Positions 2,183 to 36,044 of a stretch of 64,000 bases of DNA are shown piece after piece. The DNA is from Arthrobacter gandavensis (lineage in GTDB: Bacteria > Actinomycetota > Actinomycetes > Actinomycetales > Micrococcaceae): the NCBI RefSeq assembly GCF_009192735.1, contig NZ_VTFU01000001.1, positions 496,001 through 560,000 on the forward strand, read 5' to 3'. The translations under genes were made by a program, and so were the position numbers. Numbering within the stretch: the stretch's first letter is position 1; the number at the start of each line of letters is the position of its first letter. The notes below the pieces were generated by a model that made no database searches, had not been told where the DNA came from, and was given only the letters and a program-made list of their open reading frames with translations.

Positions 2183-2323
2183 CGCTATCCGTTTCTTAGG
2201 GAGGAAGGTTGGAGCTGCGGGCCTGGCGCTGCCCACCGGGGCAGCCCGGACAGAGTAAGTGTCCGGAACGCCGCGGCGCCGCGTTTAGCCATCGGCCCTT
2301 TCTTTAGCCTAATGTCTAGTGCT

Positions 2324-3109
2324 ATGAGTGATGTTCTTGAATTTGCCGCCGTGAGTGTCGTTCGCGGCGGCAAGACCCTGTTGGATGCCGTTGACTGGCA
2401 GGTCAAGGAGGGGGAGCGCTGGGTCATCATGGGACCCAACGGCGCGGGGAAAACCACTCTGCTGCAGATCGCCGGCGGCCGCATGCACCCCACCCGCGGC
2501 GTCGCCGGAATCCTTGAGGAAGTCCTCGGAGCCGTTGACGTTTTTGAACTGCGCCCGCGGATCGGCCTGGCTTCGGCGGCCCTCGCAAACCAGATTCCGG
2601 AACACGAAACCGTGCTCAACGTGGTCCTCACCGCCTCCTACGGAATGACCGGCCGGTGGCGCGAAAAGTACGAGAAGCTCGACGAGCGCCGTGCCTTCCG
2701 ACTGCTCCACGATTGGGGCATGTCCACCTTCATGAACCGCAGCTTTGCGTCCCTCAGCGAGGGAGAACGCAAGCGGGTGCAGATTGCCCGTGCCCTGATG
2801 ACCGACCCGGAACTGCTGTTGCTGGACGAGCCCGCCGCCGGACTGGACCTTGCCGGCCGCGAGGACCTGGTCGCCCGTCTGGCCGACCTGGCCCGCGACG
2901 AGGAAGCTCCCGCGATGGTCCTGGTTACCCACCACCTGGAAGAAGTGCCGCCGGGCTTCACGCATGCCCTGCTGCTGCGCGACGGCGGAGTGGTTGCATC
3001 CGGGCCGATCGAGGGCGTCTTCACCGAAGAAAACCTCAGCGCGGCCTTCGACCTGGCGCTTGACGTGCAGCACGACGGCGGACGCTGGTCCGCCACTGCA
3101 CGCCGCTGA
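2324..3109 (+). CDS. Solitary ABC transporter ATP-binding protein
   Basis: 261 aa from ATG 2324; an in-frame ATG at 2312 would add four residues. One complete nucleotide-binding domain: Walker A GPNGAGKT (residues about 35-42), signature LSEGERKRVQIARAL (SEGE instead of SGGE), Walker B ELLLLDEPAAGLD, and the switch His in VTHHLEE. No permease or binding protein is adjacent, so the partner and substrate are unknown; it may serve a permease elsewhere or act as a soluble ABC ATPase. A TAATGT hexamer (2309-2314) lies 9 nt before the chosen ATG, so the transcript may have almost no leader. Confidence 0.85.
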   Translation: MSDVLEFAAVSVVRGGKTLLDAVDWQVKEGERWVIMGPNGAGKTTLLQIAGGRMHPTRGVAGILEEVLGAVDVFELRPRIGLASAALANQIPEHETVLNVVLTASYGMTGRWREKYEKLDERRAFRLLHDWGMSTFMNRSFASLSEGERKRVQIARALMTDPELLLLDEPAAGLDLAGREDLVARLADLARDEEAPAMVLVTHHLEEVPPGFTHALLLRDGGVVASGPIEGVFTEENLSAAFDLALDVQHDGGRWSATARR

Positions 3110-3132
3110 CCTCCGCCTGACAGAACATCCCG

Positions 3133-3948
3133 GTGGACCTGTTCCATGGCGCCCTGGTATTGGTCGCCGGACTGTGAGCGGGAACGATCAACGCCGTCGT
3201 CGGCTCCGGCACGCTGGTAACCTTCCCTGTTCTCGTAGCGCTGGGCTATGCCCCGGTGGCCGCCACCATCTCCAATGCCATGGGGCTGATCGCCGGGAAC
3301 CTTGCCGGTTCCTGGGGGTACCGCAGGGAACTGGCCGGACTTAAAACCACCCTGCTGAAATTGCTGCCGGCCTCCGTCCTGGGCGGCATCACCGGTGCTG
3401 CGCTGCTGCTCCACCTGCCGGAGTCCGTCTTCGGCACCGTGGCTCCGTACCTGGTTGTGGTGGCGCTGCTGTTTGTTGTTTTCCAGCCGAAACTCCAGGC
3501 TTGGGTTCGCCGGCGGGCGGAACTGCCAGGGCAGGTGCCCGCGGTGGCGGGAGGACCGGCAATGCCGGCGGTTCCGGCCAAGCCGCCCCGCCGCCAGAGT
3601 GTGATTCTTGTCATCCTGATCTACCTGGCCGGGGTCTACGGAGGCTACTTTGTCGCGGCGCAGGGAATCCTGCTGGTGGGGATCCTGGGCATTTTCCTGC
3701 ACGGCAGCATCCAGAATGCCAATGCGATGAAGAACATCCTGGTGCTGGGCGTGAACATTGTTGCCGCGGTTTCCTACCTGATTTTTGCCTTTGACCGGAT
3801 CGTGTGGCCCGTGGTGGCGCTCATTGCGGTCAGCTCACTGATCGGAGGGTTCCTGGGTGCCGCCGTCGGCCGCAGGCTCTCCCCGGTGGTGCTGCGGACC
3901 GTCATTGTGCTGCTCGGACTGCTCGCCCTGTGGAATATGGTGTTCTAA
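3133..3948 (+). pseudogene. TauE/SafE-family permease interrupted by an in-frame TGA
   Basis: Reading from GTG 3133, the frame gives VDLFHGALVLVAGL, then TGA at 3175-3177, then AGTINAVVGSGTLVTFP in the same frame and a full membrane protein to the TAA at 3948. The residues on both sides belong to the first conserved helix of the TauE/SafE (anion or organosulfur exporter) family, so the stop falls inside a conserved block. The next in-frame start after the TGA is GTG 3256, which would lose that helix and its GSGT motif. Without the stop the product is about 271 aa with several hydrophobic helices. Either a recent nonsense mutation, a sequencing error, or read-through. An in-frame stop at 3118-3120 rules out a longer upstream start. 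The RNA methyltransferase gene begins on the next base after the TAA. Confidence 0.8.
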
Positions 3949-4767
3949 GTGACCCTTCACCCTTTAACTTCAGCGGCCGACCCGCGCGTGGCTGACTACA
4001 CCGGCCTGACAGACACCGCCCTGCGGCGCCGGCGAGAGCCCGAGGAAGGCATGTACATTGCCGAGTCCTCGAAAGTGCTTCGCCGGGCGCTGGACGCGGG
4101 GCACCGGCCCCGGTCCTTTTTCCTTGCTGAAAAGTGGATTCCGGATCTCCAGGATCTTCTGGACCGGTATCCGGAGGTGCCCGCCTATGTGGGACCGGCA
4201 GACATTCTGGAGGAAATCACCGGTTTCCACCTGCACCGCGGCGCACTGGCGGCCATGGAACGCCCGGCCCCGCTGGAGCTGGCGCCCCTGCTCGCCTCGG
4301 CACGGCGGGTGGCCGTGCTCGAAGACATTGTGGACCACACCAACATTGGCGCCATCTTCCGCTCAGCCGCAGCACTGCAGGTGGACGCGGTCCTGGTTAG
4401 TCCCCGCTGCGCGGACCCGCTGTACCGCAGGGCCATCCGGGTCAGCATGGGCGCCGTCTTCCAGGTGCCCTGGGTGCGTCTGACGGAGTGGCCCGGCCAG
4501 CTCCAGGCCCTCCGTGACGCCGGTTTTGTTACCGCCGCCCTTGCCCTGACCGAGGATTCAATCACCCTGGACGGGCTGAGCGGCCGGCGGGACGAGCGCC
4601 TGGCCCTGGTGCTGGGCACCGAGGGCGACGGCCTGGCAGTGGACACCCTTGCCGCCGTCGACCTCACCGTGCGCATCCCGATGAGTGGTGGAGTTGACTC
4701 CCTGAACGTAGCGGCTGCAAGTGCCGTGGCCTTTTGGGAGTGCAGGCCGCCAGCTCAGAGCAGGTAG
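3949..4767 (+). CDS. TrmH/SpoU-family RNA methyltransferase
   Basis: 272 aa. The C-terminal half has the SPOUT knot motifs: NIGAIFRSAAALQVDAVL (motif 1), LVLGTEGDGL (motif 2) and IPMSGGVDSLNVAAASAVA (motif 3), which bind SAM in 2'-O-ribose methylases of tRNA or rRNA. The N-terminal part (YIAESSKVLRRALDAG) resembles the substrate-binding domain of this family. The exact target nucleotide cannot be read from sequence. Its GTG start is immediately adjacent to the TAA of the TauE-like gene, which suggests translational coupling; a premature stop upstream could therefore reduce its expression. Confidence 0.88.
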   Translation: MTLHPLTSAADPRVADYTGLTDTALRRRREPEEGMYIAESSKVLRRALDAGHRPRSFFLAEKWIPDLQDLLDRYPEVPAYVGPADILEEITGFHLHRGALAAMERPAPLELAPLLASARRVAVLEDIVDHTNIGAIFRSAAALQVDAVLVSPRCADPLYRRAIRVSMGAVFQVPWVRLTEWPGQLQALRDAGFVTAALALTEDSITLDGLSGRRDERLALVLGTEGDGLAVDTLAAVDLTVRIPMSGGVDSLNVAAASAVAFWECRPPAQSR

Positions 4768-4854
4768 GCGCCCCCCCCGCCGCGCTCGTTGCCCGCAGGC
4801 GCGTGAGAAAAAGCACGCACAAAATCCCTTGCAGGCGCAGTGCCCGGTCCCTTA

Positions 4855-4945
4855 TCTATATGTACGGAGCATCGCACCGATGGGTGAAAGCCCCGATGCG
4901 GCGCCAGGCTGGGGACCCGGAATCTGACCGGTCCGTTGGCAGCCG
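4855..4945 (+). promoter_or_regulatory. AT-rich -10 region and structured 5' leader of the SipW-type cluster
   Basis: An AT-rich TATCTATAT (4855-4863) is a plausible -10 region in an otherwise GC-rich spacer. The transcript would then start directly at a hairpin: GCATCG (4869-4874) pairs with CGATGC (4894-4899), and inside it GGGT-GAAA-GCCC (4882-4893) forms a short stem with a GAAA (GNRA-type) tetraloop; CACC (4875-4878) could pair instead with GGTG (4882-4885). CTGGGGACCCGG follows. The ATG of the first gene is about 100 nt further on. It looks like an RNA regulatory leader, but I cannot match it to a known riboswitch class. Confidence 0.4.
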
Positions 4946-5003
4946 CGGTGCGGCGCAGCCACAAATGTGTTTCGTGTATTGAGCGTTCCAAGGGAGCGCC
5001 TCG

Positions 5004-5459
5004 ATGATGGAGGACAATGTGACTTCTGCCAACACCAACACCAACAGCAACACCAACAAGTCGAACAAGACCCGCAAGGCCGCAGCTCTCGGTCTCGCCG
5101 TCCTCGCTATCGGCGGTTTGACCCTGGCTTCCGCAGCCCAGCTGAACATGGGCACCGGGAGCTTGGGCGCAGGGACAACAGTCGTCGCCAGCTGCCAGCC
5201 TGAGGGCCAGCCGATTGGCGTTGATTTCGAGAGCAGCTTTGTAGCCACCGACGGGGAATACAAGGCGACCAGCCTCAACCTGACGTCCATTGCCGACGCC
5301 TGCAACGGCTTGGACTACAAGGTGACCGTCACTGACAGCAGCGGGAACGCCCTTGGCCAGGAAGCAACCGGGAAAGTCGCCGGCACTTCTCTGAATGTTC
5401 CGCTGCGGGATGTTTCGGCCGAAGACATCAGCAACGTTGCGGTAGTTATCAACTCCTAG
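5004..5459 (+). CDS. Exported protein with SipW-dependent-type signal (TasA-like family)
   Basis: 151 aa. N-terminus is an Asn/Thr-rich stretch, then NKTRKAAALGLAVLAIGG, a basic patch plus hydrophobic helix ending LASAAQLNMG, typical of the alternate signal peptides cut by SipW-type peptidases. The mature part is small, with two Cys (SCQPEG and DACNGLDY) that could form a disulfide, and shows beta-rich alternation. ATG 5004 has AAGGGAG (4990-4996) 7 nt upstream; GTG 5019 with GGAGGA (5009-5014) is an alternative. The next gene is a dedicated signal peptidase. Its body aligns with the first domain of the protein at 6089. Likely a secreted surface or fibre component by analogy; function not shown. 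Confidence 0.75.
   Translation: MMEDNVTSANTNTNSNTNKSNKTRKAAALGLAVLAIGGLTLASAAQLNMGTGSLGAGTTVVASCQPEGQPIGVDFESSFVATDGEYKATSLNLTSIADACNGLDYKVTVTDSSGNALGQEATGKVAGTSLNVPLRDVSAEDISNVAVVINS
5031..5060 (+). repeat. AACACC-type hexanucleotide repeats in the signal region
   Basis: Five consecutive 6-mers (AACACC, AACACC, AACAGC, AACACC, AACAAG) encode the Asn-Thr run before the signal helix. Unit gain or loss by slippage would keep the frame and change only the n-region length. Confidence 0.7.
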
Positions 5460-5471
5460 CGGAGGGTGACC

Positions 5472-6092
5472 GTGCGTATCCACCGTCACCGGCCGTTCGC
5501 CGGCGTGCCACGGGCACGCCGGCTCCGGCCGTTCTTGCAGAGCCTGATTGTGCTTGCCCTCCTCGCAGGACTGGGGTACCTCTTCTGGCCCTCGTCGTTG
5601 GGCGGATGCAGCACCCTAACGATCGTTTCCGGTCATTCCATGGACCCCACCTATGCCACAGGTGACCTGGTGTGGTCGCGTTGCGGCGATCCCGCCGTCG
5701 GCGATGTTGTGGTCTACACGCCGTCGGATGCCGGCGGCGCCAGGGTGATCCACCGGATCATCGGCGGCAACGGCACGGACGGCTGGATCCTGCAGGGCGA
5801 CAACAACGACTTCTTGGATCCGTGGCACCCGGACAATTCGGAAATTCTGGGCATTGCCACCGTGCACATCCCCGGGCTGGGCAGCATCCTGTACGGCCTG
5901 GGGAACACGTGGGTTTGGGCTTCGCTGCTGATCATCGCAGCGGCAATCTACCTCTGGCCCGAGCCGGCGCCCAGCGGAGCCGATTCTTCGAAAAAACCTG
6001 ACCCATCAGGGGATACCTTGCCCCCGGAGGATACCCTGCCCCCGGAGTCCCCGCAGGCGGTCGACGATGAAATGAAAGGAGCACTGCTGTGA
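5472..6092 (+). CDS. S26 signal peptidase, SipW/ER type
   Basis: 206 aa from GTG 5472; GGAGG at 5461-5465 is 6 nt away, whereas GTG 5466 abuts it and is unlikely. After a basic N-terminus comes one transmembrane helix (LIVLALLAGLGYLFW), then the nucleophile motif SGHSMDPT (Ser about 56). The general base position reads VIHRIIGG: a His (about 94) where eubacterial LepB has Lys, the mark of the SipW/endoplasmic-reticulum subfamily. ILQGDNND is the third conserved box. A second helix (WVWASLLIIAAAIYLW) sits near the C-terminus, followed by a repeated DTLPPE tail. It probably processes the two neighbouring exported proteins, whose genes it lies between. Confidence 0.9.
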   Translation: MRIHRHRPFAGVPRARRLRPFLQSLIVLALLAGLGYLFWPSSLGGCSTLTIVSGHSMDPTYATGDLVWSRCGDPAVGDVVVYTPSDAGGARVIHRIIGGNGTDGWILQGDNNDFLDPWHPDNSEILGIATVHIPGLGSILYGLGNTWVWASLLIIAAAIYLWPEPAPSGADSSKKPDPSGDTLPPEDTLPPESPQAVDDEMKGALL

Positions 6093-34598: not shown

Positions 34599-34637
34599 GG
34601 TGCTCCTGACCTAGGGATGGAAAAGCGGGTGGGCGAA

Positions 34638-36044
34638 TTATCCCCGGAGTTCTTCTGCGTCCGTAAAGCGGGTCTTCTTGGCGCGCACGGCGCGGTTCCA
34701 GAACCAGGTCAGCACCCACAGCAGCAGGCCGAGCAGCAGCATGAGACCGGCAATCCGGTATTCGATCGGGTCCTGCGCCCACGGGCCCAGGAGGAAGGCG
34801 CAGGTGAACACGCCCACATAGGGAAGGAAGCCGGGGGAGCGGAAGTGCTTACCCTCATGCGGAGTGCGGCGCAGCACCAGGCAGGCGATGTTGACCACGG
34901 TGAACACTGCGAGCAGCAGCAGCGCCGTTGTTCCACCCAGGGCGGTGACCGTTTCCTTGCCCATGAAGTTCGTGACGAGGATGATCAGGCCCAGCGCGAT
35001 GGCGGTGGTGAAAAGAATGGAGGCCCAGGGTGTGCGCCGGCCCGGAAGGACCTTGGAGAGTGAACGCGGAAGGACGTCCTGCTTGGCCATGCCGTAGAGC
35101 AGGCGGCTGGCCATGAGCATGTTGATCAGGGCGGTGTTGGCCACGGCAAAAATGGAGAGGAACGGGTAGATGACGTCGACCGGGAGGTTCGGGGCACCGG
35201 CGCGCACAACCTCCAGCAGCGGCGTTGCGCTTTCGGACAGCTGCCCAACCGGGACAATTGCAACGGCGGCGATGGAGACCAACAGGTAGACAATCACCGT
35301 GATGCTCAGCCCGGTCAGCATCACCTTCGGGAAGATCTTGGCCGGGTCGCGGGTTTCCTCGGCCATGTTGACTGAGTCTTCAAAGCCCACCATGGAGAAG
35401 AACGCCAGCGAGGTGGCTGCCGTCAGGGCCAGGAACACGCTCTTGTTCCCTTCGGTCTCAAAGACCATGACTCGGGAGAAATCTACATTTCCCTGGCTCA
35501 TTGCCCAGAAGCCGATCAAGATAACAATCAGCAGACCGGTCAGTTCGATAATCGTCAGGACCACATTGAACTTGATGCTCTCGCCGACTCCCCGGAGATT
35601 GATGGCGGCGAGCACCAGCATGAAGATGACGGCCACCCAGGTGACACCGGTCTGCCCCCACTCAAGGTCAAAGCCGACGATGAAGTTTTCGGCCAGGAAC
35701 TTGGCGGCTGTGGATGCCGAAGTAATTCCTGAACTGAGCACGGCAAACGTCACCAGGAAGGTCAGGAAGTGAATGCCGAAAGCTTTATGCGCGTAGAGCG
35801 CGGCCCCTGCAGCCTGCGGGAATTTGGTCACCAGCTCCAGATAGGACAGGGCGGTGATGGTGGCGACGGCGAACGCCACCAGGATGGGCGCCCACGCGGC
35901 ACCGCCAATTTCCCCGGCGACCTGACCCGTGAGGGCATAGACGCCGGTGCCGAGAATGTCGCCGACGATGAAGAGCAGTAGAAGTTTGGTCCCCATCACC
36001 CGCTTGAGTTCGGGTTCCCCGGAGCTGATTTTTGTATCGCCCAT
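34638..36044 (-). CDS. APC family amino acid permease
   Basis: 468 aa from ATG 36044 (AGGA upstream); longer starts give a non-family leader. About twelve hydrophobic helices. First helix GDILGTGVYALTGQVAGEIG contains the conserved GTGVY substrate-binding turn; later VGFEDSVNMAEETRDPAKIFP is the APC consensus loop. It is an amino acid/polyamine importer or exchanger of unknown substrate. A Usp gene follows, a pairing seen in other permease operons where the Usp may regulate the transporter. Confidence 0.9.
   Translation of the reverse strand: MGDTKISSGEPELKRVMGTKLLLLFIVGDILGTGVYALTGQVAGEIGGAAWAPILVAFAVATITALSYLELVTKFPQAAGAALYAHKAFGIHFLTFLVTFAVLSSGITSASTAAKFLAENFIVGFDLEWGQTGVTWVAVIFMLVLAAINLRGVGESIKFNVVLTIIELTGLLIVILIGFWAMSQGNVDFSRVMVFETEGNKSVFLALTAATSLAFFSMVGFEDSVNMAEETRDPAKIFPKVMLTGLSITVIVYLLVSIAAVAIVPVGQLSESATPLLEVVRAGAPNLPVDVIYPFLSIFAVANTALINMLMASRLLYGMAKQDVLPRSLSKVLPGRRTPWASILFTTAIALGLIILVTNFMGKETVTALGGTTALLLLAVFTVVNIACLVLRRTPHEGKHFRSPGFLPYVGVFTCAFLLGPWAQDPIEYRIAGLMLLLGLLLWVLTWFWNRAVRAKKTRFTDAEELRG

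Follow-up and report, generated by a model that had tools for sequence, protein, structure and literature searches.

In the genome of Arthrobacter gandavensis, a gene encoding a TauE/SafE-family permease carries a TGA codon in frame within its first conserved helix. This raises the question of whether the gene has recently been inactivated, whether the stop is partly translated, or whether the TGA is an error in the sequence.

The interrupted permease gene and its neighbors

The permease frame extends on the forward strand from GTG 3133 to the TAA at 3946–3948 of the window, i.e., of the whole stretch of 64,000 nucleotides analyzed here, and contains a single in-frame TGA at 3175–3177. In translation, 14 residues are followed by the TGA as codon 15 and by 256 sense codons up to the TAA; the initial annotation had counted 257 codons after the stop. 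The TGA is flanked by VDLFHGALVLVAGL (before) and AGTINAVVGSGTLVTFP (after). Family sequence had been proposed for both sides of the stop, and this was confirmed: the part after the TGA alone matches Pfam TauE (PF01925; E = 3.3e-33) over profile positions 8–234 of 237, and the residues before it align with the N-terminal start of orthologous proteins. With 115.8 bits against a gathering cut-off of 32.6, the post-stop part places the protein in PF01925, but the stop interrupts the reading frame within the first helix. As for transport of sulfite or related anions, which would mark the family, the only NCBIfam match of the permease is far below the cut-off (38.2 vs. 383 bits). A sequence search for related solved structures found none at E ≤ 0.01, and nothing among the literature titles listed fixes a substrate for TauE/SafE permeases. 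The feature at 3133–3948, a permease gene interrupted at codon 15 as described from its translation, Pfam, the related loci, the tree, and the constraint, is likely a fresh pseudogene. If the TGA terminates, only the 14-codon open frame at 3133–3177 (forward strand) would be translated, the ribosome-binding site (RBS) of which is weak by the measure of the script used (−1.3 kcal/mol).

The neighboring genes have the same orientation. An ABC transporter ATPase gene (2309–3109; 2309 is the boundary of the query used rather than a mapped start) ends in TGA, 23 nt upstream of the permease GTG. Downstream, the gene of a SpoU-family RNA methyltransferase (3949–4767; NCBIfam matches, the best of which is RlmB, are all below cut-off) begins with GTG 3949 directly after the permease TAA, as the initial annotation had stated.

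Following the methyltransferase gene, the segment 4801–5003 shares 93% identity with the corresponding place in G021 (206 bases aligned) and lies ahead of an open reading frame at 5004 and a gene resembling that of signal peptidase I at 5466–6092 (below the NCBIfam cut-off). Rfam gave nothing for the segment at E values of up to 1, and its fold is unremarkable (z −0.09). Beyond its own genome, a sample of 197 genomes of the family yielded just two short matches, of 30 and 24 bases. It is probably a recently shared segment.

The codon at the position of the stop in related loci

Related loci were collected with the post-stop part as the sole query, which matched 53 of 59 whole genomes at E 0.001. 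The 110 loci compared comprise the best 30 places from the whole genomes, including that of the window, and at least 80 from named genomes. Among the matches listed, a set of 110 that includes the window's own locus, 102 carry TGG (Trp) at the column of the TGA, as do 95 of the 103 left after the removal of seven duplicates. The remaining eight loci carry GCC (two), GCA, GCG, GGC, TGC, GTG, and the TGA of the window itself (one each). The GTG belongs to L060 (Arthrobacter sp. OVS8) and reflects a frame shifted by one base in the following codon rather than a substitution; the deletion, within approximately 1464–1530 of L060, lies in a G+C-rich run, one codon past the column of the TGA, and may be a sequencing artefact.

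The TGA is private to the window genome (1 of 110 loci examined). Close relatives lack it at this column, as is characteristic of a recent nonsense pseudogene, and the conservation between species that would mark a programmed readthrough site is missing. A single-base change from TGG, as the initial annotation had suggested, is supported by the codons found at this column, and GGA, its alternative ancestral codon, gains no support from them. Among the 103 deduplicated loci, only the window's own gene lacked a start codon in frame ahead of the column; L014 (ATA002) was set aside as frameshifted in this comparison, and L060 passed only owing to its shifted frame. The homologues thus include the first helix, and a family beginning after the stop, which had been named as an observation that would speak against an interruption, was not encountered.

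Selective constraint and the age of the stop

The part of the gene beyond the stop looks strongly constrained. A codon model was applied to six genomes and 239 of the 256 codons (gapped columns dropped; G013 was left out as frameshifted and G007 does not have the gene). It gave an omega of 0.028 for the window's own branch and 0.056 for the background, and a separate omega on the own branch did not significantly improve the fit (lnL gain 0.82). An omega of 1 on this branch was rejected, being 17.8 lnL units worse. The corresponding own/background values of the neighbors are 0.0086/0.033 for the ABC gene and 0.037/0.0275 for the methyltransferase gene. When a neutral phase was placed at the end of the branch and all other parameters were kept fixed, a length of 2% or 5% of the branch cost 1.4 or 3.4 lnL units, respectively, which by interpolation limits such a phase to about 3% of the own branch.

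The relaxed selection that may follow a nonsense mutation is therefore not seen, since the own-branch omega is not raised; this is compatible with a stop too young for decay. Because of the constraint beyond it, the TGA either arose very recently, stems from a sequencing error, or is partly read through, with selection still acting on the gene. The initial annotation had described the stop as recent or read through, which agrees with the strong constraint seen in the remainder of the gene.

Genuine stop codon or sequence error

The window was compared with three sister genomes, using for each the 51 best non-overlapping homologous open reading frames obtained by greedy choice. Only the permease combined high identity (87–89%) with a stop in mid-gene in every one of the three comparisons. 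Further rows were flagged at lower identity or at gene ends, e.g., 7060 against G021, 40715 against G004, and 34613–34857 against G001, which resemble shadow frames or genes that end at different points.

The uniqueness of the interruption bears on the main rival explanation, namely that a base-call or assembly error produced the TGA and that the living strain has an intact gene. The otherwise intact and constrained permease would suit an error, and the frameshifts in the same gene in ATA002 and OVS8, the former accompanied by a frameshifted ABC gene, make errors likely in this set of sequences. However, the window contains no second high-identity gene interrupted in this way, the completeness of the genome is given as 100% and its contamination as 0.01, and substitution errors are rare in polished assemblies. 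An error is therefore considered unlikely, and the TGA is probably an ordinary, recent nonsense allele that is real.

Decoding of the TGA codon

Nothing points to a dedicated recoding mechanism. Insertion of selenocysteine at UGA was rejected, since the matches to its machinery remain below cut-off: the best RF01852 (tRNA-Sec) match scores 43.3 vs. 47 bits and is a tRNA-Ser according to ARAGORN, and the best match to SelB (TIGR00475) reaches 193.8 vs. 242.25 bits. The genome has 53 tRNA matches, 52 of which were typed by ARAGORN (the weakest, at 29 bits, gave no type), and there is no stop-reading anticodon and no UCA among the typed ones. A reassignment of UGA to Trp was also rejected, because the single tRNA-Trp type has the anticodon CCA on a 5-bp anticodon stem and the neighboring ABC gene terminates in TGA. 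Increased readthrough of UGA is reported for a tRNA-Trp variant with a 4-bp anticodon stem (PMC13092985). A structured recoding element was dismissed on account of the RNA around the stop, which shows no unusual stability (z = 0.53 and 1.05); Rfam matches are absent from 3000–5100 at E up to 1.

Background misreading is a different matter. TGA is described as the leakiest stop in E. coli, with termination less efficient when a G follows, and mean TGA readthrough of reporters in rich medium rose from 0.51% at 37°C to 7.23% at 18°C, with Trp as the main residue inserted (PMC11126739). The base directly after the TGA at 3175–3177 is a G. By analogy with the misreading in E. coli, a trace of full-length permease is likely.

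Such misreading could matter to the cell if the near-cognate tRNA-Trp decoded the TGA often enough to supply a low but useful level of permease, so that the stop dims the gene rather than abolishing it. The residue inserted would be the Trp that relatives carry at this column, and in-frame stops in prokaryotic genes are reported to be widespread and short-lived, with dN/dS below 1 (Belinky et al., 2021, PMC7918605). The stop nevertheless occurs in no other locus examined, and neither the typed tRNAs, the search for the selenocysteine machinery, nor the RNA structure near the stop offers a means of decoding it; useful readthrough is thus regarded as very unlikely.

Distribution and loss of the permease gene in the genus

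The permease is dispensable in the genus. It was found in 16 of 29 genomes and not in the other 13 (E 1e-15), and the methyltransferase is present in all 29. In the 13 genomes without the permease, the ABC and methyltransferase genes are neighbors; the distance from the end of the ABC match to the methyltransferase start is 19–21 nt in 12 of them and 50 nt in G007. In a tree of the ABC and methyltransferase genes, which has several weak nodes (47–65), the 13 genomes fall in two places: 12 form one group (support 79), and G007 pairs with the permease-bearing G013 (support 82), near the window genome. The junctions between the two genes also differ between the group of 12 and G007. The simplest reading of the tree and the junctions would be that the permease was lost at least two separate times, once in a near sister of the window genome. 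The 50-nt spacer of G007 (L146) starts like the leader in the window and contains a 5-codon GTG..TGA frame adjoining the methyltransferase GTG, which we infer to be the remnant of an in-frame deletion. A distant TauE-type match (29–37% identity) exists in each of the 29 genomes, so some functional redundancy is possible.

Frameshifted copies were treated with caution. Those of ATA002 and OVS8 were not counted as additional losses because the neighboring ABC gene of ATA002 is frameshifted as well and the change in OVS8 affects one base in a G+C-rich run. In G013 (L114), the permease and the adjoining ABC gene both look frameshifted, which suggests assembly errors.

Possible translational coupling to the methyltransferase

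The methyltransferase gene lies downstream of the permease gene on the same strand in 109 of 110 loci, and its start was assigned in 108, in 87 of which its distance to the permease stop is −4 to 14 nt (duplicates included). Of the 16 genomes of the genus with the permease, 15 have the stop and start abutting or overlapping; G010 is the exception, with a 14-nt gap. In reporters in E. coli and Haloferax, a stop-to-start distance of about 20 nt is reported to have nearly abolished coupling and reinitiation (PMC10666635). Termination at the TGA of the window leaves 771 nt to the methyltransferase start; because ribosomes would stop this far ahead of it, coupling by termination and reinitiation would be lost, and translation of the methyltransferase would probably fall.

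How strongly the methyltransferase depends on this coupling was approached via its RBS, which is at −3.3 kcal/mol by a simple duplex measure. The same measure gave −2.6, −4.7, and −5.2 for three other genes of the window, −4.8 for the methyltransferase of G007, and −2.7 to −10.7 for nine methyltransferases measured in the deletion group of 12, seven of which are stronger than that of the window. The RBS is weak but not exceptional, so the dependence of the methyltransferase on permease translation is only suggestive. A lowered methyltransferase translation in the window strain, which the initial annotation had already considered, is plausible.

The abutting stop and start also allow for an extended form of the readthrough explanation, in which a condition-dependent insertion of Trp at the TGA preserves some permease and at the same time sets the output of the methyltransferase. 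One stop codon would then tune two genes at once, a working regulatory device that we hold to be highly improbable. A further explanation, judged very unlikely, is a shorter functional permease starting downstream, e.g., at GTG 3256, which opens a frame of 230 codons (3256–3948, forward strand) but has a weak RBS (−2.4) and would yield a product without the first conserved helix. GTG 3174, which overlaps the TGA, belongs to another frame ending at 3344, and the relatives, L014 and L060 aside, have their in-frame starts ahead of the TGA column.

A probable young nonsense allele on the way to gene loss

Taken together, we consider it probable that the window carries a recent nonsense allele, generated by a single base change of the conserved Trp codon 15 in the first helix from TGG to TGA. 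Translation would mostly terminate after 14 residues, leaving the permease nearly null save for the low-level insertion of Trp that UGA is known to permit in E. coli, the coupling to the methyltransferase would be lost, and the allele would represent an early step toward the loss of the permease that has been completed in relatives.

This reading places the gene among the nonsense-mutated young pseudogenes and polymorphisms of bacteria. It shares with them a single in-frame stop in an otherwise intact frame, the restriction to one lineage, and a patchy presence in the genus (absent from 13 of 29 genomes at two places in the tree); no difference from them was found, the case being known from one genome of the species. 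It also resembles the stops described by Belinky et al. (PMC7918605) in that a TGA lies within a gene under purifying selection. That study is reported to focus on stops present in at least two genomes, with a dN/dS of 0.66 for TGA, whereas the stop of the window is present in one genome and its omega is a between-species value.

The locus is mainly a worked example of the loss of a dispensable gene. The permease forms a series: it is intact in some relatives, freshly stopped in the window genome, reduced in a near sister to a 5-codon frame that keeps the junction with the methyltransferase, and absent in a larger group. It thereby provides a natural test of whether the routes by which the upstream gene can be lost are limited by translational coupling to the methyltransferase downstream.
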